Assembly (NCBI GenBank): GCA_900321635.1
Contig: ONWV01000018.1
Location: 1-41,065, forward strand
Source of the DNA: an uncultured Spirochaetaceae bacterium
Lineage (GTDB): Bacteria > Spirochaetota > Spirochaetia > Sphaerochaetales > Sphaerochaetaceae
Length of the DNA stretch: 41,065 nucleotides
Direction of reading: 5' to 3'
The notes under the pieces were generated by a model. The model saw only the letters and a list, made by a program, of their open reading frames with translations, was not told where the DNA came from and did not search any database. A program made the position numbers and the translations under genes. This document shows, one piece after another, positions 1,249-15,509 of the stretch (its first letter is position 1; the number at the start of each line of letters is the position of its first letter).

Positions 1249-2625
1249 TCAGTCCTTTTTCGTTGTAGTTTCTTTCTTTGCGGGCTCTTTCTTCTCGTCT
1301 GCCTTCTCAGCCTTTGCAGCCTTCTTTGTAGCAGCCTTGAAAGTGTTGTTCTCAAGCAGGAAATCACGAGCCTTTCTGAACTTGATGTCGTCCTCGGCGT
1401 AGATCTTCATTGACTCGTAGTTCGGGCTGTCCTTTGTGATGTCCTCGCCGTAGTTCTTAAGCTCTTCGGCAAGCTCATCTTCCTTGACCTCGTACTTCTG
1501 CTCTTCCTTGACCTGCTCGATGATGAGCTGAGCCTTGATGTTCTGAAGGGTGTCTGCACGTCTGGTCTCCAGGAACTGCTCCTTGGATCCGCCCTGTGCG
1601 CCCATGATCTTCAGGACATCGGCCTCGTTCATGCCGAAGCGGGAGATGAAGTTCTGCCAGTCAGACTCAAGCTGAGCCTCGACCATGCTCTTGGGAACAG
1701 CGATTTCTGTCTTCTCAAGAAGAGAGTTGACAATGGCATCGAGCTTGGCGCTCTTGTTCTCGTTCTCTGCTGCATCCTCAAGCTGCTTCTTTGTAGCCTT
1801 GAGAAGGTCGGCGACTGTCTTGTACTCGTCCTTGACGTCCTGAGCAAAATCGTCGTCCAGAGCCGGGACTTCCTTGATCTTGACTTCCTTGACTGTGACC
1901 TTGATCTTGACGGTCTTTCCGAGGTAGTCGGTGCCCATTCCGCTGTCATCACCGTAGGTCTTCTCAATGACGGAGCTGTCTCCCTTCTTCATGCCGATGA
2001 TGTCCTTGTCCAGCTTGTAGAAGTTGTAGGAGCTTCCTACTGTGAAGGTGAAGTCATCACGCTTGGTGGACTCCATCTCCTTTCCGTCTGCATCCAGCTC
2101 AACATAGTCGAGTGTGACAATATCGCCGTCAGCAATGGCGCCGTTCTTGGCAATGACCATGGCGTTCTGCTGTCTGAGTCTCTCGATCTCCTCGTTGACG
2201 TCCTTCTCTGTGACCTTCTTGGCCTCGTACTCAATCTCCAGTCCCTTATACTCGGGAAGCTTGACCTGAGGAAGAACATCATAGATGACGCTGTATGTCA
2301 CGTCTGTGTTCGGCTTGAACGGAAGAAGGGACTCCTCGTTCTGAAGCTCAGGAGTGCTGTACGGAAGCGGGCGGTCCTTGGCATCCATGTCCTTGTATGA
2401 ATCCGTGAGATTCTTCTCCATCAGTCTGAAGGTGACTTCTTCGCGGATTGCATCACCGTACTTGCTCTCGATAAGTGAAAGCGGTGCCTTGCCGGGTCTG
2501 AATCCCTTGAGGGTCAGCTTCTTGGCATAATCCTTAATGGTCTTCGAATAGTCTTCCTCGATTGCAGCAGCGCCGAGAGTAAGGGTAAGCTGCACTGATG
2601 AGTTCTCAAGTTTCTTGATTTCCAT
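1249..2625 (-). CDS. tig: Trigger factor, ribosome-associated chaperone
   Basis: Ribosome-bound folding chaperone with peptidyl-prolyl isomerase activity. Three parts are visible: the N-terminal ribosome-binding domain (MEIKKLENSSVQLTL, with the GFRPGKAP ribosome-contact loop), a central FKBP-type domain (about residues 150-245, DGDIVTLDYVE to TVKEVK), and a helical C-terminal chaperone arm. A lysine/alanine-rich tail ends in TTTKKD. The start is the ATG at 2625 (458 aa), chosen because GAGGA sits 5 nt upstream and the trigger-factor consensus begins there. An in-frame start 16 codons earlier would add residues unlike the family. First gene of tig-clpP-clpX, an order common in bacteria. Confidence 0.95.
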   Translation of the reverse strand: MEIKKLENSSVQLTLTLGAAAIEEDYSKTIKDYAKKLTLKGFRPGKAPLSLIESKYGDAIREEVTFRLMEKNLTDSYKDMDAKDRPLPYSTPELQNEESLLPFKPNTDVTYSVIYDVLPQVKLPEYKGLEIEYEAKKVTEKDVNEEIERLRQQNAMVIAKNGAIADGDIVTLDYVELDADGKEMESTKRDDFTFTVGSSYNFYKLDKDIIGMKKGDSSVIEKTYGDDSGMGTDYLGKTVKIKVTVKEVKIKEVPALDDDFAQDVKDEYKTVADLLKATKKQLEDAAENENKSAKLDAIVNSLLEKTEIAVPKSMVEAQLESDWQNFISRFGMNEADVLKIMGAQGGSKEQFLETRRADTLQNIKAQLIIEQVKEEQKYEVKEDELAEELKNYGEDITKDSPNYESMKIYAEDDIKFRKARDFLLENNTFKAATKKAAKAEKADEKKEPAKKETTTKKD

Positions 2626-2762
2626 TTTATTCCTCACTAAAAAAATGTCGCTAAAAAAATGTTGCCTACCCAATATATAGAAATTAATAAAAGAAATCCA
2701 CTACCTGACGGCGGTTTTTTGGTACGGTTGTCCGTCAATTGAAAAATAAAACCAATCAGCTA

Positions 2763-2791
2763 TTGCGCAACTTCTGCAAAAATGCTATAAA
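2763..2791 (+). promoter_or_regulatory. Promoter of tRNA-Gly
   Basis: TTGCGC at 2763-2768 and TATAAA at 2786-2791 are separated by 17 bp, and a TGC immediately precedes the -10. Predicted transcription start is 6-7 bp downstream, just before the tRNA 5' end at 2804. Confidence 0.6.
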
Positions 2792-2803
2792 CAAACTCGT
2801 CTT

Positions 2804-2875
2804 GCAGCAGTAGCGTAGTGGTTACGCACCACCTTGCCAAGGTGGCCTACACGAGTTCGAATCTCGCCTGCTGCT
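2804..2875 (+). tRNA. tRNA-Gly (anticodon GCC)
   Basis: 72-nt cloverleaf. The acceptor strands GCAGCAG and CTGCTGC pair fully. The anticodon arm is CCACC-TTGCCAA-GGTGG with anticodon GCC, and the T-arm contains GAGTTCGAATCTC. CCA is not encoded. A run of seven T follows directly and probably ends the transcript. It marks the left edge of the accessory island at 2964-9014, consistent with tRNA 3' ends being common insertion sites, but I see no second copy of the tRNA end to the right of the island. Confidence 0.97.
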
Positions 2876-2921
2876 TTTTTTATTTGCTGAAATACCAAAG
2901 CAAATCCGTTGGCTGATGTTA

Positions 2922-3003
2922 TATAATTTCATCTGATTCTGGCATCAGCGTGGAGAACGGAAAGTGAAAGCCAAGACGAACATATGTGTGATGAGCACAT
3001 ATG
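2922..3003 (+). promoter_or_regulatory. Leader and start region of the PLD-RT gene, with two hairpins
   Basis: A perfect TATAAT is at 2922-2927, with no good -35 at the usual distance. The short leader can pair CTGAT (2933-2937) with ATCAG (2944-2948); alternatively GCTGATG (2912-2918) pairs with CATCAGC (2943-2949). Just inside the gene, CATATGTG (2981-2988) and CACATATG (2996-3003) form an 8-bp stem with a 7-nt loop holding an in-frame ATG. The SD GGAGA (2952-2956) and the GTG start (2964) lie between these structures, so translation could be structure-sensitive. No retron-type msr/msd is evident. Confidence 0.4.
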
Positions 3004-5162
3004 ACCTGGATCTGAATGTCCTGGACTCTATTGTTCCTCAGGGGGAAGACCTCTCAAGGTATGTCGTGTTCAATGGAGCAGGCCTCTTTGAGCCCTTCAA
3101 GTCAGACGGTCAGGACAAAAGCCCAAGACAGATTGCAATGGAAGGGTGCATTGTCCCATCATTGCTTCCTGATGGGTATATGTACGGCAAACTCAAGCTC
3201 ACGGAGACGGTGGATGAGGCGGGCTCTTTCAGCTACAGGCTGGAGATCGGGAGCGCCAACATCTTCCACTTCAGGAACAAGGAGATACAGATTCTCTTCT
3301 CTGGAGAGCCGACTACCGAAATCCAGGAAAAGAGCATTCCAATTTGCACCTTCCTTGCGGATTTGTGTCCCTTCATGGACAAGAGCGACCCAAGGCGGGA
3401 GAGTGTCCTTGCCCTTGCTGAGAGGTTCAAGTACGTTAAGCTCGCCATGAGCGGACCTTATCAGAGCGACGACTGGTCAATCATCGCCACATGTCCATCC
3501 TCCAAGGACCCGAATCCTGTCATGCGCATGGCCGAGGACTACGACCAGATTCTGGTGGTGGCCCCGAATGTGAACCTCTCTGTCCTCCAGAGGTTGACGG
3601 GCACAGGAAGAAGAAGGAAAGAGTGCATCCTGATAACAAGAAGGGCCATCCTGGACGAGATGCTTTTGGAAGGGCCTCTAAGGGCCACGTCATGCGCCAG
3701 CGAGGAGCTTTGTGACAGATATATACACGCCAAGGTGTATCTTTGCAGAAAGGGTGGTGATTTCGAGCTTCTCTGCGGGTCCATGAACCCCACATACTAC
3801 GGGCTGTACAGAAACTTTGAGCTTTCCATCAGTCTCGCAAAGCCGAATGGCGTCACATCGGTGGTCTCGTTTCTGGCGGATTTTCTGGAGGTGGATGAGA
3901 ATAGGCTTCGCAGCCTCCTTGTCTCGGAAACAGTCAGGTGCAAAAAGGTGCTTGAGGGCGCAGGCGATGACATGAAGCTTTTCGACCTTTTGTCATCCGT
4001 TGAGGTTCGCCATTCTTATCTGAGGCACCTGATGGACAGGGACAAGGAGATTCGGCTTTCTGAGCGGAAGACGATCTGCGACTACATCCTTTCAGATGAT
4101 TGCCTAAAAGACATAGAGGATGCAAAGAACCAGAGACTGCAGCTCCCGCCCCCTGAAAGGAGGGAAATCTGCCAGAATGGGAAAAAGAGGGAAGTCTATG
4201 TGTTCCCGATGAGAGCGCGTTGCTTTCTCGGTCTTGTGGGCTTTGCCCTGAAAAGACACGATGGATGTTTCTCCGACTGCCTCTACTCGCATCGCTTGGG
4301 AGTGTCTGCCCACGATGCCTTGATACGCTTTCGCCGAACACCACCGGACAGTAGAAGAATCATCCTGAAGACTGACATCCACAGCTATGATCCATCGATT
4401 GACAGGGACAGGCTGTTCTCCAAGATCGATGACCTTCTTTCCTGTGATCCGGATACTGCCCGGTTCCTGAAGCGCATCTCTTGTTCTGGACAGTACATCC
4501 AGGACGGTGTTTTGCACGATGATGGTCCAGCGGTCATGTCAGGAAGCCCGCTAGCAGGATTCTTCGAGAACCTCTACCTTTCGGATCTTGACCACATGAT
4601 GGAGAAGGCTGCTCCACTTTACATCCGCTATGCGGACGACATCCTTGCGGGAGTCCCTGACAAGGACAGTCTGAATACAATCATGCCCGCTTTCACGGGA
4701 TGCATCGAAAAGGAAGGTCTGACCCTGTCGGAGAACAAGACCATGGTGATCGACGCAGACAGTCCTTTCGTCTATCTCTCCTGGCAGATATGTGGAAATG
4801 ACATCGACATTCCGGAATCCACGGTGCAGATGTGGAGGCAGACTCTCAGACGTGAGATGAGGGAGCTTGCAGACAGGATGCAGACCCGGGCGCTGCCTCC
4901 GGAGGTGCTGACGTACATATGTGTACGAAAGCTTCATGCAGTGCAGAAGAACATCGGAATAAGGCGCTATTTCAGATTGGTGACAACAGACAGGACGCTG
5001 AGAAGAATTGACCACATAACCGTTGATGAGATGAGACGCGTAATCAGCGGACACTCCGGCAAGGAACGCTACAAAGTCCGGTACAGGTATCTGCGGAGAC
5101 TGGGCTACAGGAGCCTTGTAAGCCAGTACTATGGATTTCTGAGTTATAAAAAAAGGCAATGA
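2964..5162 (+). CDS. PLD-like nuclease domain fused to a reverse transcriptase
   Basis: 732 aa, GTG start with GGAGA upstream. N-terminal part (about 1-330): the region from RYIHAKVYL to CGSMN has one phospholipase D-type catalytic signature (H255-x-K257, D266, G272-S273-x-N275), as in PLD-superfamily nucleases that work as dimers. C-terminal part (about 400-730): reverse transcriptase, with motif A ILKTDIHSYDPSID (D471), motif B MSGSPLAGFFENLYL, motif C YIRYADDIL (D558, D559), motif D EGLTLSENKT and a YLSWQI motif corresponding to FLGY/F. No HNH, maturase or DGR accessory domain is visible. All key catalytic residues of both domains appear intact. The RT resembles group II-intron-like or unclassified bacterial RTs; I cannot assign a named clade. 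Its stop codon lies inside the terminator of the convergent peptide gene. Confidence 0.85.
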   Translation: MKAKTNICVMSTYDLDLNVLDSIVPQGEDLSRYVVFNGAGLFEPFKSDGQDKSPRQIAMEGCIVPSLLPDGYMYGKLKLTETVDEAGSFSYRLEIGSANIFHFRNKEIQILFSGEPTTEIQEKSIPICTFLADLCPFMDKSDPRRESVLALAERFKYVKLAMSGPYQSDDWSIIATCPSSKDPNPVMRMAEDYDQILVVAPNVNLSVLQRLTGTGRRRKECILITRRAILDEMLLEGPLRATSCASEELCDRYIHAKVYLCRKGGDFELLCGSMNPTYYGLYRNFELSISLAKPNGVTSVVSFLADFLEVDENRLRSLLVSETVRCKKVLEGAGDDMKLFDLLSSVEVRHSYLRHLMDRDKEIRLSERKTICDYILSDDCLKDIEDAKNQRLQLPPPERREICQNGKKREVYVFPMRARCFLGLVGFALKRHDGCFSDCLYSHRLGVSAHDALIRFRRTPPDSRRIILKTDIHSYDPSIDRDRLFSKIDDLLSCDPDTARFLKRISCSGQYIQDGVLHDDGPAVMSGSPLAGFFENLYLSDLDHMMEKAAPLYIRYADDILAGVPDKDSLNTIMPAFTGCIEKEGLTLSENKTMVIDADSPFVYLSWQICGNDIDIPESTVQMWRQTLRREMRELADRMQTRALPPEVLTYICVRKLHAVQKNIGIRRYFRLVTTDRTLRRIDHITVDEMRRVISGHSGKERYKVRYRYLRRLGYRSLVSQYYGFLSYKKRQ

Positions 5163-5176
5163 ATGCTCATTGCCTT
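5148..5176 (-). terminator. Rho-independent terminator of leader-peptide gene A
   Basis: AAGGCAATGA (5153-5162) pairs perfectly with TCATTGCCTT (5167-5176) around a 4-nt loop. On the minus strand it is followed by seven T (5154-5148). The stem includes the RT stop codon, so the two convergent genes share this structure. Confidence 0.85.
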
Positions 5177-5183
5177 CACATGA

Positions 5184-5417
5184 TCAGGATGTCTCGAACC
5201 ACGGGTTTCCGTGCCATCCGCCACCAACGACCTTGTCAAGATCCTCGGCGGACAATGAGGATGCCTGTCCAGCTATCTGGATCAGTTTCTCCACCTGCTT
5301 GTCTGAGATCTCAAGGTTGTTCTTGTTGGCGAAGGCGAAAATCTCATCCTTCGTCTTGAGCGAGATGAGCGATCTCATGAGTTCCGGGCTTAAATCCTTC
5401 AGCTTGAACTTTTTCAT
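5184..5417 (-). CDS. Leader-type peptide A (Nif11-like body, double-glycine motif)
   Basis: 77 aa, ATG with AGGAGAG upstream. It opens MKKFKLKDLSPEL. A helical, charged body resembles the Nif11-like leader family of RiPP/bacteriocin precursors (DEIFAFANKNNLEISDKQVE). Then comes LSAEDLDKVVGG, matching the classical double-glycine leader consensus with Gly-Gly at 65-66. The predicted tail is only GWHGNPWFETS, with two Trp and no Cys. Peptide B (6633-6869) shares the body and GG motif but has a different tail, the pattern expected of a conserved leader with a variable core. No C39-peptidase exporter or classical RiPP-modifying enzyme is nearby. It has its own promoter and terminator and is divergent from the small-protein/Fic operon. 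Confidence 0.7.
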   Translation of the reverse strand: MKKFKLKDLSPELMRSLISLKTKDEIFAFANKNNLEISDKQVEKLIQIAGQASSLSAEDLDKVVGGGWHGNPWFETS

Positions 5418-5460
5418 GTTCGTCTCTCCTAATTGCTGCGATGCTACACAGTGATAACAA

Positions 5461-5505
5461 ATATTACATCCTGATGGTTACTTTTACAACTGTAGATGGT
5501 AAGAT
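5461..5505. promoter_or_regulatory. Interlocked divergent promoters, cassette A
   Basis: Minus-strand promoter for peptide A: -35 TTGTAA (5489-5484), 17-bp spacer, -10 TAATAT (5466-5461). Plus-strand promoter for the small-protein/Fic operon: weak -35 GTTACT (5477-5482), 17 bp, -10 TAAGAT (5500-5505). The minus -35 falls inside the plus spacer, so RNA polymerase should not occupy both at once. GGTTACTT (5477-5484) followed 12 bp later by ATGGTA is conserved at the same place in cassette B and may be a shared operator. Confidence 0.6.
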
Positions 5506-5512
5506 TGCTTAC

Positions 5513-5758
5513 ATGAAGAAACTGGGTACAAGGGCTCTCACACCTTCAATTATGGGGGTTCTGATAAAAGAGGACAGCACAGACGGCGTAAGGCGCAGAG
5601 CGTTTGGGCTGGGCTATGAACTGTCCGAGAACCTTGCAAAGAGGATCCTCTACATGAAGAGGTTCTCGGCATCCGTTGATGATGGGGAGTTCCCCATTCA
5701 TTTCTCCTCATTCGAATTCGGTGAGGCAGAGTACTCCAATCCATTTGAGGAGGAATAG
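5513..5758 (+). CDS. 81-aa small protein A, upstream partner of Fic
   Basis: No family recognised. The start at 5513 is chosen because the resulting 81-aa protein aligns end to end with its 81-aa paralogue in cassette B (6967-7212). Both read xTPSIMG near residue 10, have a central Y.(L/V)SE.LA..ILYMKR helix, and end in an acidic (N/A)PF.E(E/D) tail. A longer reading from 5441 would overlap the promoter. No ribosome-binding site precedes the ATG, and the -10 ends 7 nt upstream, so the mRNA is probably leaderless. The stop is 3 nt before the Fic start, a spacing that fits a small regulator or antitoxin encoded just before a Fic enzyme. The Fic-inhibitory motif (S/T)xxxE(G/N) is not present in this copy. 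Confidence 0.65.
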   Translation: MKKLGTRALTPSIMGVLIKEDSTDGVRRRAFGLGYELSENLAKRILYMKRFSASVDDGEFPIHFSSFEFGEAEYSNPFEEE

Positions 5759-5761
5759 GGA

Positions 5762-6466
5762 ATGGACATAGCGGCACTTAGAAAAAGGGACGCGGATCTC
5801 TATGCAAGGCTTCCCGGCTTCATGTTGAAAGGGGAGCATTTTGTGCTTGCCAACGCAATGTTCCACCCGGGAAGGCTCTTGAACGAGCTGAATGCCATGA
5901 ACTTCATCATCGACCACGAATCGGAGCCTTTCTGCCTCAAGACAATCTGCGACATCTATGCGGCTTTGACGAAGGGGACGGAATTCGAGGGCAAGTCATT
6001 CAAAAAGCGCAATGTGTTCGTTTCGGACAAGAACAGGAAGTATCTATTCGTCACTGCAGCCGCAGAGGACACCCCGGCCGAGATTGAGCGCATATGCAAG
6101 GACTTCAGCCATCTGGACAATCCAAGGGATGAAAACCTTGATGACATGCTACGCTTCATCCTGATGTTGATGCTCATTCACCCGTTTGAGGATGGAAACG
6201 GGCGCTTTGCGTCTGTGGTCCTCCAGTTTCTGATGCAGAAGGCGCATTTCAGGTGTGCACCTTTTCTTCCGGTTGATTATCTGAGATACGGGTATCATAT
6301 GAACTTGTTCGCGAAGCATATCGTCTATGCCTCCGGTGCATTCTACGGACACCGGCCCGTCAGATCTGACAGGTTCGTTCCATACATGTGGGATGTGATA
6401 GACAATGCATATGGCTTTCTGGAGAAAGCGGTGAAAAGATGTGAGATCTCCGCATCACGAAACTGA
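5762..6466 (+). CDS. Fic-domain protein 1 (predicted nucleotidyl/AMP transferase)
   Basis: 234 aa. Fic enzymes usually transfer AMP, less often another phosphate-containing group, to Ser, Thr or Tyr hydroxyls of a target. The full catalytic loop HPFEDGNGR is at 140-148 with the catalytic H140, and an upstream flap-like segment EGKSFKKRNVFVSD (about 76-89) fits target docking. The residue after GNGR is F rather than the common T, and the second Arg of the extended HPFx(D/E)GNGRxxR motif is absent. Only a short N-terminal helical region precedes the Fic fold, and no own (S/T)xxxE(G/N) inhibitory helix is evident. It aligns without gaps through residue 150 to Fic 2 (8313-9014), showing a tandem duplication. 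It sits 3 nt after the 81-aa gene and is probably co-translated with it. Confidence 0.85.
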   Translation: MDIAALRKRDADLYARLPGFMLKGEHFVLANAMFHPGRLLNELNAMNFIIDHESEPFCLKTICDIYAALTKGTEFEGKSFKKRNVFVSDKNRKYLFVTAAAEDTPAEIERICKDFSHLDNPRDENLDDMLRFILMLMLIHPFEDGNGRFASVVLQFLMQKAHFRCAPFLPVDYLRYGYHMNLFAKHIVYASGAFYGHRPVRSDRFVPYMWDVIDNAYGFLEKAVKRCEISASRN

Positions 6467-6478
6467 ACCCTACAGTTG

Positions 6479-6598
6479 GAATTGATCCGGGAATATAAGA
6501 AGGTCCATGACGGGAAACGGTAATTGCCAAAGCGCTCTACCATGATGGATTTCCTGTGTAATCCCGAGAGCGTGCAGGAACTGAATCATCGCATTTAA
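6479..6598 (+). pseudogene. Possible remnant of a decayed gene between the cassettes
   Basis: One frame reads 39 sense codons interrupted by a single TAA at 6521-6523, in segments such as ELIREYKKVHDGKR and MMDFLCNPESVQELNHRI, with protein-like composition but no start. This suggests the 3' end of a lost gene at the cassette junction. I do not recognise the family. The 166-bp interval 6467-6632 otherwise shows nothing clear. Confidence 0.3.
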
Positions 6599-6632
6599 GC
6601 GGCATTCCCGCCATGAACCATGGTTGTCAAAG

Positions 6633-6869
6633 TCAAGATTCTGTGTGTACGTTTCCCCATGAATCGACCCAAATTCCGCCTACGACCTTGTCAAGCTCCT
6701 CCAGGGACAGATGGTTGTTCTCCGACACCTGCAGAATCCTCTCCGCCTGCCTGTCTGAAATGTCAAGGTTGTTCTTGTGGGCCAATGCAATGACCTCATC
6801 CTTCGTCTTCAAGACTATGAACGACTTGATGAGCTCCGGGCTCAAATCCTTAAGTTTGAATTTCTCCAT
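6633..6869 (-). CDS. Leader-type peptide B (Nif11-like body, double-glycine motif)
   Basis: 78 aa, preceded by AGGAGAG. Paralogue of peptide A. The first 20 residues differ at only a few positions (FKLKDLSPEL is identical), followed by KTKDEVIALAHKNNLDISD and LSLEELDKVVGG with Gly-Gly at 64-65. The tail IWVDSWGNVHTES differs from tail A except for two Trp, a Gly-Asn pair and a hydroxyl-rich C-terminus (TES versus ETS). Conserved leader with divergent tail is typical of precursor peptides, but here there is no recognisable exporter. It could instead be a small regulatory or antitoxin-like protein. The minus promoter at 6944-6916 drives it. No strong terminator is visible after its stop. Confidence 0.68.
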   Translation of the reverse strand: MEKFKLKDLSPELIKSFIVLKTKDEVIALAHKNNLDISDRQAERILQVSENNHLSLEELDKVVGGIWVDSWGNVHTES

Positions 6870-6915
6870 TTTCTCTCCTGCTCCTTTTGAAAACAGATTT
6901 CCATATCTACAACAA

Positions 6916-6960
6916 AATATACCATCCGTCGGTTACTTCCTCAAGAAATAATGGTACACT
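6916..6960. promoter_or_regulatory. Interlocked divergent promoters, cassette B
   Basis: Minus promoter for peptide B: TTGAGG (6944-6939), 17 bp, TATATT (6921-6916). Plus promoter for the small-protein/RtcB/Fic operon: GTTACT (6932-6937), 17 bp, TACACT (6955-6960). The geometry is identical to cassette A, with GGTTACTT and ATGGTA again 12 bp apart. The upstream AACAAA.TAT..CATCC block is also shared between cassettes. Confidence 0.6.
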
Positions 6961-6966
6961 TGTCAT

Positions 6967-7212
6967 ATGCAGATGCTGAGCAAAAACAAGATCACCCCGT
7001 CCATCATGGGACTGTTCATGACAAAGGACTCCGTAGATGAGATAGGAAGCTGTGCGCTTGAAAACGGCTACATCGTTTCGGAGGAGCTGGCTAATAGCAT
7101 TCTGTACATGAAGAGGCTTGCAGGTTCAATCCAGGATGAGGATCTTCCGCTTCACTTCATCCCGTTCGACTGCGGAGAGATGGATTACGCTGCCCCATTC
7201 GGAGAGGACTGA
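6967..7212 (+). CDS. 81-aa small protein B, paralogue of 5513-5758
   Basis: No family recognised. Aligned without gaps to small protein A over all 81 residues (ITPSIMG, then ILYMKR, then an acidic tail). An in-frame TAA at 6949-6951 excludes an earlier start, which fixes the N-terminus for both paralogues. No SD, and the -10 ends 6 nt before the ATG, so probably leaderless. Residues SCALEN match the Fic-antitoxin motif (S/T)xxxE(G/N) known from VbhA-type inhibitors; the equivalent in copy A is RRAFGL. The match is short and may be chance. The stop overlaps the RtcB start (TGATG at 7210-7214), implying coupled translation. Confidence 0.65.
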   Translation: MQMLSKNKITPSIMGLFMTKDSVDEIGSCALENGYIVSEELANSILYMKRLAGSIQDEDLPLHFIPFDCGEMDYAAPFGED

Positions 7213-8309
7213 TGCTTGAGATAAAAGGACGCAAGAGCACTGCGATCTGCTACTGCAAGACCATACGCGACAGGGCAGTCATGGACATAAGAGCAATCTG
7301 TGACCATGACTTCACAGAAAACCGCAGGATCAGGATTATGCCGGATGTCCATCCGAACGGGGATGGAACGGTGACGGGCTTCACTATGACATTAGGTGAG
7401 CCGCTGGTGTTGGGCCTTGAATATCCCAGCGGCTGTGGCGTCAGCTGTGCAAAACTCAATGCCGCTCCTTTGGACCTTCCCAAGCTTGACCAGGTCTGCA
7501 GGCAGTTTCCGGCATCCAGGGGCGAATCTCTCATTGTGCCTGCCTTTGACTACGACTTCTCTGTGTTGCGATGCTATGAGAATGTCAGACCCTATTACCT
7601 CTGGCCGACCTCATTGGGGACCCTCGGCGGGGGCAACCACTTCATAGAGCTGGACAGGGATGATGAAGGAGGACTGTATCTTGTGGTCCACAACGGACTT
7701 GGAAGGCTCGGATCCCCGGTTCTCAGGCATTACCGGGATCTGTCTCTCCGAAAATCGGGGAAGGTGGGCGGTGAGGCGGAACTTGAGGACACATTCCTCT
7801 TCGGACAGGACATGGAGGACTACATCCATGACATGGACATCATCGTCGACGCCTGCAGGAAGAACAGACGCTACATAATTGACTCCATCATCTCCGATAT
7901 GGGGTGGAAGGAGTTGGATTTCTTCGATACCTGCCACCATTGCATAAGCAAGGAGGATGGGGTGATACGCCATGGGGCTGTATCCGCCCACAAGGGTGAG
8001 AGGGTCATAATACCGGTCAATGCAAAGGACGGGACCATATTGGGGACTGGAAATGGGAACGAGGAATGGAACTTCTCCGCTCCCCATGGCGGTGGAAGGG
8101 TCTACAGCAGAAGCGAGGCCTTTGAGAATCTGGACATAGAGGGCTACAGGTCGTCAATGGATGGAATCTACAGCACTTCTGTGAGCGAGGGCAACCTGGA
8201 CGAGGCGCCGCTTGCCTACAAGAGGATGGATGAGATTCTGCAGACGATAGAGGACAGCGTCGATGTGCAGAGGATCCTCAAACCGGTGTTCAACTACAAG
8301 GGGGAGTAG
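7212..8309 (+). CDS. RtcB-family RNA ligase, divergent short form
   Basis: 365 aa, shorter than characterised RtcB proteins (about 400-480). RtcB joins 3'-phosphate or 2',3'-cyclic phosphate RNA ends to 5'-OH ends through a His-GMP intermediate with Mn2+. Visible signatures: SGCG (C75), SLGTLGGGNHFIEL (H143), VVHNGLG (H160), CHHC (H242/H243), SAPHGGGR with the presumed guanylylated H292, and the C-terminal LDEAPLAYK and LKPVFNYKG. Oddity: the Asp that normally lies three residues before the metal-binding Cys (DxxC) is Pro72 here, so one metal ligand is missing. Present only in cassette B, between the 81-aa protein and Fic 2. No archease gene nearby. A role in RNA repair or protection tied to Fic is inference. 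Confidence 0.88.
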   Translation: MLEIKGRKSTAICYCKTIRDRAVMDIRAICDHDFTENRRIRIMPDVHPNGDGTVTGFTMTLGEPLVLGLEYPSGCGVSCAKLNAAPLDLPKLDQVCRQFPASRGESLIVPAFDYDFSVLRCYENVRPYYLWPTSLGTLGGGNHFIELDRDDEGGLYLVVHNGLGRLGSPVLRHYRDLSLRKSGKVGGEAELEDTFLFGQDMEDYIHDMDIIVDACRKNRRYIIDSIISDMGWKELDFFDTCHHCISKEDGVIRHGAVSAHKGERVIIPVNAKDGTILGTGNGNEEWNFSAPHGGGRVYSRSEAFENLDIEGYRSSMDGIYSTSVSEGNLDEAPLAYKRMDEILQTIEDSVDVQRILKPVFNYKGE

Positions 8310-8312
8310 CGG

Positions 8313-9014
8313 ATGAATCTTGCATCACTCAGGGCAAAAGACGATGACATCTACGGAAGAATGCCTGCTTTCATGAGGCGTGGGGAGCATCTTCTGCTGT
8401 CAAATGCGATGTTCCACCACAAAAGCCCCTTGAACGAGCTCAATGCCCTGCATCACATCATAGACCATCGTTCAGATCCCCTCTGCGTCAAGACGGTCTG
8501 CGAAATCTACGCCTCTCTTGTGAAGGGGACGGAATTCGAGGGAAAGTCTTTCAAGAAGAAGAATGTGGTGGTGACTGATGTCGACAGCGACCATATGTAC
8601 GTCACGGCCTCCGTCGAGGAGACGCCATATGAGATGGAGAAGCTATGCAGGGACTTCAGACATCTGGACGATCCCTGTGATGACGACTTGGACGACATGA
8701 TCCGTGTCTGTCTTCTTGCTCAGCTCATACACCCATTCGAGGACGGAAACGGGAGGTTCTCCTCAGTGCTTCTTCAGTTCCTGCTTCATAAGGCATATCT
8801 GAGATGCGCACCGTTGCTTCCATTCGACTTCATGAAATACGGGTCGAACATGTCCGTGATCACAAAGCACATAATCTATGCCTCTGGGGCATTCTACGGA
8901 CACAGGCCGATAGTGTACGACAAGTTCATCCCATTCATGAAGGATCTGATCTGCAAATCCTACGGCTACCTGGATGACACGGTGAAGAGGTACGAGATGT
9001 GGCAAGGGCTATGA
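8313..9014 (+). CDS. Fic-domain protein 2 (predicted nucleotidyl/AMP transferase)
   Basis: 233 aa, starting 3 nt after the RtcB stop. Catalytic loop HPFEDGNGR at 140-148 (H140), with flap region EGKSFKKKNVVVTD. Colinear with Fic 1, with long identical blocks (NELNA, KGTEFEGKSF, HPFEDGNGRF, IYASGAFYGHRP). The conserved C-terminal YASGAFYGHRP segment is not part of the canonical Fic motif and may be specific to this subfamily. Both copies keep their catalytic residues, so neither looks like a decaying duplicate. Last gene of the cassette B operon; no terminator recognised before the metK promoter. Confidence 0.85.
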   Translation: MNLASLRAKDDDIYGRMPAFMRRGEHLLLSNAMFHHKSPLNELNALHHIIDHRSDPLCVKTVCEIYASLVKGTEFEGKSFKKKNVVVTDVDSDHMYVTASVEETPYEMEKLCRDFRHLDDPCDDDLDDMIRVCLLAQLIHPFEDGNGRFSSVLLQFLLHKAYLRCAPLLPFDFMKYGSNMSVITKHIIYASGAFYGHRPIVYDKFIPFMKDLICKSYGYLDDTVKRYEMWQGL

Positions 9015-9053
9015 TCTCATTGTCCGAAAGCAGAAGGTGCCCTTTTACAGTCC

Positions 9054-9082
9054 TTTACATATTTTACTTAATTCGATATATT
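9054..9082 (+). promoter_or_regulatory. Promoter of metK
   Basis: TTTACA (9054-9059), 17 bp, TATATT (9077-9082). The predicted leader of about 55 nt has a small GACGG/CCGTC stem and ends in AAAGGAGGG before the ATG. It is too short for a known SAM riboswitch. Confidence 0.7.
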
Positions 9083-9143
9083 TGCCTCCGACGGGATTTA
9101 ACATCTACTTGCTCCGTCTAAAAAATAGCTAAAGGAGGGAAAC

Positions 9144-12126: not shown

Positions 12127-13428
12127 TCAAAGTGCCTTGACGATGATCTTCAGGACGAAGAGCAGGGCAACAATCCAAGTTGTTGTTCCAATCTCTTTGG
12201 ACTTTCCGGAAGCGGACTTCATGATTACGTAGGAAAGGATACCGAACATGATACCATCTGAAATGCTGTATGCACAAACCATGAACAGCATGCAGAGGAA
12301 GGCCGGAATACCTTCTGAATAATCGTGGAAATCGATCTCTGTGACAGGAGTGATCATCATGACACCGACGATGATGAGTGCCGGAGCTGTTGCTGCGCTA
12401 GGAATTGATCCGAACAGCGGCTCGAGGAACAGTGAGAGGAGGAAGAGGACTGAGACTGTGATAGCTGACAGACCGGTTCTTCCGCCTTCTGCGACACCGG
12501 ATGCACTCTCAACGAATGTTGTGACTGTTGAAGTTCCGAGGATAGCACCGACTGTTGTACCGACAGCATCGGCGAACAGAGCTTCCTTACAGTTGGGGAT
12601 TGAACCGTCTTTCTGGACAAGACCGGACTTTCCGGCACATCCGATAAGGGTTCCGACTGTATCGAACATATCAACGAACAGGAATGTGAACATGACAATC
12701 ACAAAATCGAATGTTGACTTACCGTTGGAGAAGATCTCCTTGAAAGCGAACTCAAAGCAGTATGGAGCGCTTGGGAGGTAGCTTCCGCCGGCGTACTGTG
12801 TGACTCCGAAAGGAATACCGATGATTGTTGTGATGATGATACCGAGAAGCAGAGCGCCCTTGACCTTTCTGGCAAGAAGAATGCCTGTGATGACAAGACC
12901 GATCATTGCGACTCCGGCGGGACCTCTGAACCAGCCAGCGCTGAGCTCAACAAGTGTTGCACCGCCTACGATGATTCCGGCATTCTGCAGTCCGATGAAA
13001 GCGATGAACAGACCGATACCTGCGGCGATTGCCTTCTTGAGGCTTGCCGGGATGCTGTTGACAATTGCTTCTCTGACGTTGAGGAATGTCAGAAGCAGGA
13101 AGATGATACCTTCAACAAAGATTGCAGTCAGTGCCCACTGCCATGAGTAGCCCATTCCGAGACAGACAGTGTAAGCGAAGAATGCGTTGAGACCCATTCC
13201 TGCGGAAAGTGCGAACGGAAGGTTTGCAAGAAGACCCATGACCAGGGTTGCAATAGCTGATGTGATAGCTGTTGCTGCGAAGACCTTTCCGAAATTCATT
13301 CCGGATGCAGAAAGAATTCCAGGGTTGACAGCCAGGATGTAAGCCATTGTCATGAAGGTAGTGATACCGGCCATGATTTCGGTCTTGACGTCCGTGCCTC
13401 TTTCCTTGAGTTTAAAGAATTTTTCCAT
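12127..13428 (-). CDS. NCS2/AzgA-type purine permease
   Basis: Inner-membrane nucleobase transporter, about 12-14 hydrophobic segments. Family signatures: MAGITTFMTMAYILAVNPGIL near the N-terminus, GMGLNAFFAY, and the GTSTVTTFVESASGVAEGGRTG region of AzgA/PbuG-type hypoxanthine, guanine or adenine carriers. The neighbour ade points to adenine or hypoxanthine as substrate. The start is the ATG at 13428 (433 aa), 7 nt after AAAGGAG; the in-frame TTG at 13434 almost touches the SD and is unlikely. Confidence 0.88.
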   Translation of the reverse strand: MEKFFKLKERGTDVKTEIMAGITTFMTMAYILAVNPGILSASGMNFGKVFAATAITSAIATLVMGLLANLPFALSAGMGLNAFFAYTVCLGMGYSWQWALTAIFVEGIIFLLLTFLNVREAIVNSIPASLKKAIAAGIGLFIAFIGLQNAGIIVGGATLVELSAGWFRGPAGVAMIGLVITGILLARKVKGALLLGIIITTIIGIPFGVTQYAGGSYLPSAPYCFEFAFKEIFSNGKSTFDFVIVMFTFLFVDMFDTVGTLIGCAGKSGLVQKDGSIPNCKEALFADAVGTTVGAILGTSTVTTFVESASGVAEGGRTGLSAITVSVLFLLSLFLEPLFGSIPSAATAPALIIVGVMMITPVTEIDFHDYSEGIPAFLCMLFMVCAYSISDGIMFGILSYVIMKSASGKSKEIGTTTWIVALLFVLKIIVKAL

Positions 13429-13468
13429 TTCCAATCTCCTTTTAGATTAATGGCATTCGATATTGCCA

Positions 13469-13497
13469 TTCTAACCCCACAAGTATGTGTAAGTAAA
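13469..13497 (-). promoter_or_regulatory. Putative promoter of the purine permease
   Basis: Minus strand: TTTACT (13497-13492), 17 bp, TTAGAA/TAGAAT (13474-13468). A stem of AATGGCA with TGCCATT lies in the leader just before the SD. The upstream stretch to 13560 is T-rich on this strand. No purine riboswitch recognised. Confidence 0.45.
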
Positions 13498-13583
13498 GCA
13501 AAATCGAAAAAATGCAACAAAACGCAACAGAAAAAAACGCAAAAAAAGAGGACCAAAATTGATGTTTTCGTAAATAGTGGGAG

Positions 13584-15509
13584 TTACTTTCTTCTGTTTC
13601 CGTTCTTTACGAAGGCAACGTAATCATCCTCCACAAGAGGAGGTGAGAAGTAGTAACCCTGAATCTGCTTTGCGCCCATCTTGGTGACGCGGTCCAGAAC
13701 GGACTTGGACTCAATGCCCTCGACGACAATCTCAAGGCCCAGATCGCAGAAGAGCTTGATTGTGCTTTCAAGGATTCTCTTGCCCTTGTCGGCCTCGTCC
13801 AGGAGGGTCTTGTCAATCTTGACCGTGGCAAACGGAAGCTTCATGACCTGAAGGATGTTGGAATAACCTGTTCCGTAGTCATCCAGCGCAAACGAGAATC
13901 CCATCTTGATCATCTCGTTCATGAAGGCCATCAGAAGGTCAGGATTCTTGGCGGCCACGGATTCTGTGATCTCGAAGCAGATTCTCTTGGGCTCGATTCC
14001 GTATTTTTTAACCACATCGTAGATTCTCTTTGTCGGGTTGTGGAAGAACTCGGCTCCGGAGATGTTCAGATGGAGCATGTTGATCTCAGGGTGCTTGGCA
14101 AGGACGCGGCAGGCGATGTCAACGACGAAATTGTCGATGAAGATGGCCATGCCTCCCTGCTCGATGACCTCTATGAACTCGCCGGGGGAGACTGCTCCCA
14201 GATTCGGATCGTCATATCTTAGAAGGACCTCGGCGGATGAGAACGACAAATCATCTACATGGATTATTGGCTGCATGCAGATATAGAAGCCTTCGCCTGA
14301 CTTTATGGACCTTCTCATGGACTCTTCCAGAAGCTGTCTTCTTCTGTGCTTGGCTATCTGCTGGAAGTCGATGGTCACGCTCTTCTTTTGGTCCGTGTAG
14401 GTCGTCTCCTCGTCAAGAAGCTCTCCGATGAGTGCAATCATCTCGGGAGTCGAGATGCTGACCGATGTTCCCATATCCACACTCAGGACCTTTGCCATGA
14501 GATCGATGTTCACTCCTCCTGCATCCCAGCTCTTTCTGAAACGCTCCACTATGAGGCCTGAGACCTCTTCCATCTCCGCCTTGCTCTTTGATCCCACCCA
14601 GAAACGGGTCTTGGAGTCCCTGAAGCACCAGACGCTTCCTGATGAGAGCGAAGACAGGTAATCTCCTATACTATTCATAAGAATATGGCTGGATTTGTCT
14701 CCGATTTCCCTCTCGGTGGAGCTGAGCCCGTCAATCTCCATGACGGTGAAAAAGCACTTGGAAGCTTCGATTCTGTCATCCATGTACAACTTCAGGGCAA
14801 CAATGTTGAATACTCCAGACTCTCCGTCGAACATGCTGTCAGGACTCTGGAGCGTCAGATCCCACAAAAGGATTGCGATTGTCATTGCCGTTCCGACAAG
14901 AAGCAGCTCCGGATTCTTCATTTGGATAACCATGGCAACCGATACGACTATGGTGAAAAGAACTATTGTCCAGATCTGCTTGCGGGAAAGATTCCTGCGC
15001 ATGAAGATTATTATGAGAAGGAGCACAATCTCATAGAAGAAGGCTCCTGCGTAGTACAGGGTATGGAACCGTCCGGTTCTGAATACCGCCAGACCGTCTA
15101 TGACATCAAAGTAGAAGAACATCCTTGTGAACGGGTTCAGAATCTGAAGCAGCATGAAGGCCGCAGCCGGAACCATCACCAGGAAGATTCTGGGATTCTT
15201 CTTGTATGTGCATCCCGTTGCAATAAGAACGTAGATGCATGTCAGACCCGGAATGGTGATCTGTAGGAAGTAGAACAGCCCGTTTATCAGGTAGTTCAGC
15301 CACAACGGGACCATTATTCTGTTCATGACGGTAAGACAACCCAGAAGGTCGGTTGTCAGGCTTCCAACGGCACAGAGAAGAATCAAAGTGAATAGGAAAT
15401 TGGTTCTTGTCGGGAATTTCTTGGCTGAAACGAACTGGAAAGTGATGGCAAGCAAAAACAAAAGAGAGCAAAGCTCATACTGAAGCTGATAATTATATGT
15501 CACCGCCAT
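13584..15509 (-). CDS. Membrane-bound EAL-domain cyclic-di-GMP phosphodiesterase
   Basis: 641 aa. About seven hydrophobic segments occupy the first 230 residues as a probable sensor. A GGDEF-position domain follows (about 235-375) that has lost the GGDEF motif and is presumably non-catalytic. The C-terminal EAL domain (about 385-635) keeps the residues needed for c-di-GMP hydrolysis: EVLLR (ExLxR), LHLNISG, FEITES, ALDDYGTGYSN (DD), VKIDKT, EGIES and QGYYFSPP. It is therefore predicted active. The start is the ATG at 15509, 8 nt after GGGAG; an upstream in-frame ATG at 15527 lacks an SD. Transcribed divergently from the 15618 gene. Confidence 0.9.
   Translation of the reverse strand: MAVTYNYQLQYELCSLLFLLAITFQFVSAKKFPTRTNFLFTLILLCAVGSLTTDLLGCLTVMNRIMVPLWLNYLINGLFYFLQITIPGLTCIYVLIATGCTYKKNPRIFLVMVPAAAFMLLQILNPFTRMFFYFDVIDGLAVFRTGRFHTLYYAGAFFYEIVLLLIIIFMRRNLSRKQIWTIVLFTIVVSVAMVIQMKNPELLLVGTAMTIAILLWDLTLQSPDSMFDGESGVFNIVALKLYMDDRIEASKCFFTVMEIDGLSSTEREIGDKSSHILMNSIGDYLSSLSSGSVWCFRDSKTRFWVGSKSKAEMEEVSGLIVERFRKSWDAGGVNIDLMAKVLSVDMGTSVSISTPEMIALIGELLDEETTYTDQKKSVTIDFQQIAKHRRRQLLEESMRRSIKSGEGFYICMQPIIHVDDLSFSSAEVLLRYDDPNLGAVSPGEFIEVIEQGGMAIFIDNFVVDIACRVLAKHPEINMLHLNISGAEFFHNPTKRIYDVVKKYGIEPKRICFEITESVAAKNPDLLMAFMNEMIKMGFSFALDDYGTGYSNILQVMKLPFATVKIDKTLLDEADKGKRILESTIKLFCDLGLEIVVEGIESKSVLDRVTKMGAKQIQGYYFSPPLVEDDYVAFVKNGNRRK

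Follow-up and report, generated by a model that had tools for sequence, protein, structure and literature searches.

A duplicated spirochaete cassette in which an 81-residue protein, encoded next to Fic, is a paralogue of a double-glycine peptide leader

What might hold together a Fic enzyme, a small protein of 81 residues and a peptide with a double-glycine leader, set side by side twice in a row in the genome of an uncultured member of the Sphaerochaetaceae? The first-pass annotation of the window (the whole stretch of 41,065 nucleotides analysed here) had described a duplicated cassette at 5148–9014, and an open reading frame check found every gene that it named, in the place and order it gave. 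The two tandem cassettes lie at 5184–6466 (copy 1) and 6633–9014 (copy 2). Each consists of a minus-strand peptide gene, whose product has a leader ending in VVGG, followed by plus-strand genes for an 81-aa protein and a Fic. In copy 1, peptide 1 (77 aa, 5184–5417, minus strand) is separated by a divergent intergenic region (5418–5512) from the 81-aa gene (5513–5758, plus strand), and the Fic (234 aa, 5762–6466, plus strand) follows. In copy 2, peptide 2 (78 aa, 6633–6869, minus strand) and the intergenic region (6870–6966) are followed on the plus strand by the 81-aa gene (6967–7212), an RtcB-family gene (365 aa, 7212–8309) and the Fic (233 aa, 8313–9014). As first reported, RtcB is restricted to copy 2. 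Alignment of the two intergenic regions revealed a common block, GGTTACTT.

The gene junctions were as uniformly tight as had been claimed: the 81-aa and RtcB genes overlap by 1 base (TGATG), and the remaining junctions are 3-base gaps. Shine–Dalgarno-like GGAG or GGGGAG runs precede the peptide, RtcB and Fic genes, and no such site was found before the 81-aa starts in either copy. A leaderless 81-aa transcript was considered for this reason, and the promoter scan gave no convincing plus-strand promoter. On the minus strand, a promoter-like site for peptide 2 (6916–6944; TTGAGG, 17 bases, TATATT, with TG preceding the second hexamer) is a consensus match only, of a grade that chance alone is expected to give. 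Past peptide 1 lies an intrinsic terminator (5152–5177, minus strand), a stem of 11 pairs with a T run behind it, which also falls at the end of the upstream reverse transcriptase gene.

The cassettes belong to an island between tRNA-Gly (2804–2875) and metK. This is a variable insertion site (2804–9143): among sister species, the same interval is short and empty in G134 and holds carA- and carB-like genes in G127, G133 and G135. Upstream of the cassettes is a gene for a reverse transcriptase of 732 aa (2964–5162, plus strand), whose RT domain is nearest to RT_UG26 (E 1e-71). The protein has a PLD-like N-terminal part (a PADLOC ZacB match at residues 59–321) and a YADD motif. Its DNA is 99.6% identical to the copy in the sister species G131, and the flanking DNA is 93–96% identical; these values suggest that the reverse transcriptase, at least, was recently exchanged. 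The G131 contig stops just before the reverse transcriptase stop codon, and no cassette-family Fic was found in the G131 assembly. The terminator stands between the reverse transcriptase and peptide 1, and no functional tie of the former to the cassette was found.

Copy-to-copy identity was 58% for the Fics, 44% for the 81-aa proteins and 63% for the peptides. Nei–Gojobori estimates between the copies gave dS of 1.3–1.7 and dN of 0.29–0.42, indicating an old duplication and purifying selection on all three shared genes. The dN/dS ratio, which is an average across the whole time since duplication, was ~0.22 for Fic, ~0.25 for the 81-aa gene and ~0.23 for the peptide. Most differences between the copies fell at the third position of the codon when read in the claimed frames, that of the minus-strand peptide included. 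In this last frame the differences within the leader numbered 11, 5 and 22 at codon positions one, two and three, a bias that supports the frame as coding. Selection after duplication, proposed earlier, was therefore borne out for the three shared genes (dN/dS ~0.2). Judged by these substitution patterns, both copies are old and still selected.

What the first-pass annotation had missed was a relationship between the two small proteins. Residues 1–49 of the 81-aa protein aligned without gaps, from residue 1 onwards, with both peptide leaders (hhalign probability 86%, E 4.9e-6). Because two-sequence profiles give rough E-values, the leader columns were permuted as a test: the observed score was 171, the best permutation reached 118, and none of 100,000 column permutations did as well. 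Taken singly, the 81-aa proteins each scored 85–86 against the leaders, as compared with 18 for the best of 2,758 other 49-residue segments from eight proteins of the window. From these alignments we conclude that the 81-aa protein and the peptide leader are paralogues, a relationship described here for the first time. Structure models, both based on alignments of two sequences, predicted helices in the same order and of the same length in the 81-aa protein (11–17, 23–32 and 39–54) and in the peptide (11–18, 23–32 and 39–52). In the copy 2 model of the 81-aa protein, block-mean pLDDT was 85–94 over residues 1–50, which form a predicted three-helix domain, and the acidic tail was modelled as disordered. 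The leader and the 81-aa N-terminus are predicted to be the same three-helix domain.

Past residue 49 the sister proteins diverge: GG and a tail follow in the peptide, and in the 81-aa protein the tail is acidic (charge −7 to −8), with Tyr74 and Ser54 among the positions kept in both copies. Each cassette thus encodes two small sister proteins, on opposite strands, of which only the peptide has a Gly-Gly site. Profile libraries gave no family match for the 81-aa protein, and a fold search of solved structures gave no significant match for either small-protein model. DNA-binding domains matched the 81-aa model weakly (E above 2), and these matches were set aside.

The leaders end in LSAEDLDKVVGG (peptide 1) and LSLEELDKVVGG (peptide 2), and are followed by a tail of 11–13 residues, GWHGNPWFETS in peptide 1 and IWVDSWGNVHTES in peptide 2. 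Both tails are short, contain Trp, lack Cys and end in hydroxyl residues (ETS, TES). The earlier observation that the leader was kept and the tail changed held on comparison of SLSAEDLDKVVGG and HLSLEELDKVVGG, in which conservation falls past the GG. A double-glycine motif of the ELSxEELxxVxGG type closes the conserved region of both peptides. Such a motif has been published for NHLP, N11P and class II bacteriocin leaders, for example ELSDEELESITGG (PMC2887384), and the cassette motifs fit it. The body of the leader had also been called Nif11-like; searches with PF07862 and TIGR03798 gave zero profile matches up to E 10, so the term describes resemblance rather than membership.

Neither Peptidase_C39 nor an NHLM transporter was found in the window's own MAG, which is only 80.6% complete, so that their absence is weak evidence. 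The sister species G131 has an NHLM pair, scoring 888 bits with TIGR03796 (cut-off 853) and 709.3 with TIGR03797, 0.1 bit under the cut-off of 709.4. Export of the peptide is plausible. In G131 (L077, G131:C269) the NHLM bacteriocin transporter pair occupies 1251–5595, and a GG-type peptide lies nearby at 5644–5844 (VLTPEELENVSGGG). In G133 (L078, G133:C4) an ordinary 379-aa Fic with an internal SSQIEG (12848–13987) is found ~1 kb from an NHLM pair, possibly by coincidence.

Both Fics matched the Pfam Fic profile (E 1.5e-11 and 4.7e-9). The motif HPFx[D/E]GN[G/K]R, recorded earlier as HPFEDGNGR in both copies, is present in each (HPFEDGNGRFAS in copy 1, HPFEDGNGRFSS in copy 2), with the His, the Asp and GNGR in place. 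At the second Arg of HPFxDGNGRxxR, which all 15 comparison Fics have, both cassette Fics carry Ser. The broader claim that all catalytic residues had been retained fails at this position, as it does in the RtcB pocket. The inhibitory motif [S/T]xxxE[G/N] was absent from the interior of both Fics. In EfFIC the inhibitory Glu pairs by salt bridge with Arg122 (PMC6408439), which we equated with the second motif Arg by numbering from His111. The 81-aa protein of copy 2 carries SCALEN, which fits the inhibitory motif; that of copy 1 has no such motif. The loss of the second Arg and the missing Glu motif in copy 1 disfavour standard Glu-based inhibition; a small partner or antitoxin may act by some other mechanism. 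The motif arises by chance in 8–14% of shuffles of the 81-aa sequence and occurs twice in RtcB as well, and SCALEN, at chance level and in copy 2 only, was set aside as an inhibitory motif. No VbhA-type Pfam match was found. PADLOC candidate-defence Fic profiles matched the cassette Fic at 4e-12.

Small partners of class I Fics are on record, VbhA/VbhT being one such pair. The Fti proteins of Campylobacter, ~80 aa long and encoded immediately ahead of class I fic genes, have been proposed or shown to act as partners of the Fics, and one of them, Fti3 (78 aa), contains GHAIEN (PMC5651007). AntF, and AntY with its own promoter, are likewise small partners of class I Fics (PMC7479194).

The RtcB-family protein of copy 2 matched Pfam RtcB with E 3.6e-31 and 109 bits (cut-off 27). 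It aligned over its whole length with relatives at 34–40% identity, with a ~45-aa deletion as compared with most of them. In Pyrococcus numbering, the equivalents of Cys98, Asn202, His203, His234, His329, His404 and Arg408 are kept. Three positions, each invariant in 41 relatives, are altered (Arg238 to Gly, Asn330 to His and Lys351 to His), and Asp95, invariant in the same 41, falls at Glu70 or Pro72 according to the placement of a two-residue insertion. Metal and phosphate roles have been published for the equivalents of Asp95, Asn330 and Lys351 (PMC10630183; PMC10944509). In human RTCB, Asp119, Asn354 and Lys375 (the Asn and Lys were matched to Pyrococcus by hand, by motif position) hold the phosphate freed from the nucleotide, and mutation of Asp119 alone ends ligation (PMC10944509). 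With these pocket residues changed, ordinary RtcB ligase activity is unlikely, and the protein is probably an accessory of copy 2 rather than an ordinary GTP-dependent RNA ligase. In the Fics and in RtcB alike, residues are missing from the side of the nucleotide pocket that binds phosphate, a sign, perhaps, of unusual donors or of a role in binding instead of catalysis. Elsewhere in the same family, genome G097 (L073, G097:C177, 2–982) encodes a short RtcB without the same ~45-aa segment; it keeps the normal catalytic residues and no cassette is linked to it.

Relatives of the Fic, the 81-aa protein and the peptide were sought in 393 genomes of the phylum and 139 of the family, in 84,980 species genomes (two pattern scans), in pattern scans of viral contigs and by tblastn of plasmids and phages; distant ordinary Fics alone were found. 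The genome and viral pattern scans need short exact peptide stretches and miss divergent members, so a count of one genome is a lower bound. The test of recurrence in unrelated genomes that had been proposed thus failed, the full gene set being seen in one genome only. Nor did linkage to RtcB recur: among 47 RtcB loci (40 viral, 6 plasmid and 1 from the same family) none had Fic, the 81-aa gene or the peptide nearby. A literature search found no published description of this composition, in agreement with the first impression, and no paper naming Nif11 together with Fic.

Our preferred explanation, a tentative one, is that the cassette is a Fic with a dedicated 81-aa partner, beside an exportable sister of that partner. 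The 81-aa gene is tightly packed with Fic into a single unit, and since this Fic-coupled partner and the peptide share a domain, the two probably meet the same binding site. We infer that the site is on Fic, which would modify, bind or be regulated there. Fic would bind the shared leader-type domain, and the 81-aa protein would stay in the cell as its regulator or fixed substrate. The peptide, with the same domain, would compete for that site or be guided to it, after which its tail would be cleaved off and exported via an NHLM-type transporter. Protein modification by Fic would in this way be tied to the making or sensing of the peptide. The explanation is supported by the homology of the 81-aa protein to the leader, the matching predicted helices, the fit to the double-glycine motif, the NHLM pair of G131, the selection and codon-frame evidence and the small-partner precedents among class I fic genes. 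It is weakened by the lack of a C39 or NHLM match in the 80.6% complete MAG, by structure models built on two sequences with no resembling solved structure, and by a cassette in which no known RiPP enzyme was found. Occurrence in one genome leaves no cross-species co-occurrence with which to test the pairing, and limits our confidence. A more ambitious form, which we regard as doubtful, is a new peptide system in which a three-helix dock is common to an exported GG peptide and its non-exported sister, an altered-pocket Fic acts on or is controlled by the dock, and RtcB was recruited after losing ligase activity.

Two alternatives are close rivals of the Fic-partner explanation. The peptide may be tailored in the manner of a RiPP, the leader guiding Fic to modify Ser, Thr or Tyr in the tail (by nucleotidylation or otherwise), perhaps in the 81-aa tail also, before the modified peptide is exported. 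We consider this somewhat doubtful. Leader, GG and variable tail make up a precursor architecture, hydroxyl residues close both peptide tails, Tyr74 and Ser54 are among the 81-aa tail positions kept between copies, and a sister species has the NHLM transporter. However, the tails are short and without Cys, no other tailoring enzyme or transporter adjoins, Nif11 and Fic were not paired in any paper found, and Fic shares an operon with the 81-aa gene while the peptide is on the opposite strand. That arrangement, a small protein followed by a tightly packed Fic without an inhibitory motif of its own, is what a class I Fic toxin–antitoxin would present. There the 81-aa antitoxin would block the ATP site of Fic (through an inhibitory Glu in the standard form), and the peptide would be a side product of the family. 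The candidate-defence Fic profiles and the SCALEN of copy 2, comparable to the GHAIEN of Fti3 (PMC5651007), point the same way. We nevertheless hold it to be rather unlikely: the motif is missing in copy 1 and within reach of chance, the Arg that pairs with the inhibitory Glu in EfFIC (PMC6408439) is Ser in both Fics, and no VbhA-type match was found.

The two remaining readings we judge improbable. The neighbouring reverse transcriptase, with its RT_UG26 similarity, and the variable tRNA-Gly site would suit an RNA-repair or anti-phage unit within a defence island, with RtcB as the repair enzyme for RNA and Fic marking or damaging the translation machinery, and RtcB2–PrfH is known to protect against a ribotoxin (PMC9223846). 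Yet copy 1 has no RtcB, and the RtcB of copy 2 has lost residues invariant in 41 relatives, where the Asp mutation alone abolishes ligation by human RTCB (PMC10944509). A terminator, moreover, parts the reverse transcriptase from the cassette, and G131 has the reverse transcriptase while the cassette was not found in its assembly. The same altered residues in Fic and RtcB, the large RtcB deletion and the restriction to one genome would be expected of a decaying remnant of a formerly larger cluster, its enzymes already losing activity. Against such decay, every reading frame is intact, and dN/dS is ~0.2 for the three duplicated genes, although such an average, taken from the duplication to the present, could hide recent decay of one copy.

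If it is true that the shared domain docks both the peptide and its cytoplasmic partner on Fic, Fic modification would be linked to bacterial peptide export, a link of which no instance was found in the literature searched. The RtcB variant is a natural experiment on the capacities of the RtcB fold once its phosphate-binding residues are lost. The evidence comes from one genome, and more members are needed before the claim carries weight.

Compared with known systems, the cassette resembles several in part. The copy 2 protein is like the RtcB RNA ligases in its Pfam match, its whole-length alignment and its equivalents of Cys98, Asn202, His203, His234, His329 and His404. It differs from them in the changes at Asp95, Arg238, Asn330 and Lys351, in the ~45-aa deletion and in its setting within a Fic operon. 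The peptides share with NHLP and N11P precursors (TIGR03793, TIGR03798) a long, predicted-helical leader, an LSxEELxxVxGG end and a short variable tail, and the transporter pair that serves for comparison (NHLM; TIGR03796/03797) is present in the sister species. In contrast to those precursors, the leaders match neither PF07862 nor TIGR03798, the tails have no Cys, the adjoining enzyme is a Fic instead of a known tailoring enzyme, and the transporter was not found in the window's own 80.6% complete MAG. The placing of an ~80-aa protein directly before Fic is that of Fti3/Fic3, AntF/Fic-1 and AntY/FicY, and the Fics resemble class I enzymes in having HPFxDGNGR and no inhibitory motif of their own. 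They depart from that class in carrying Ser at the second motif Arg and in partners that do not both have the inhibitory Glu motif, and the small protein beside them has a double-glycine leader as its paralogue.
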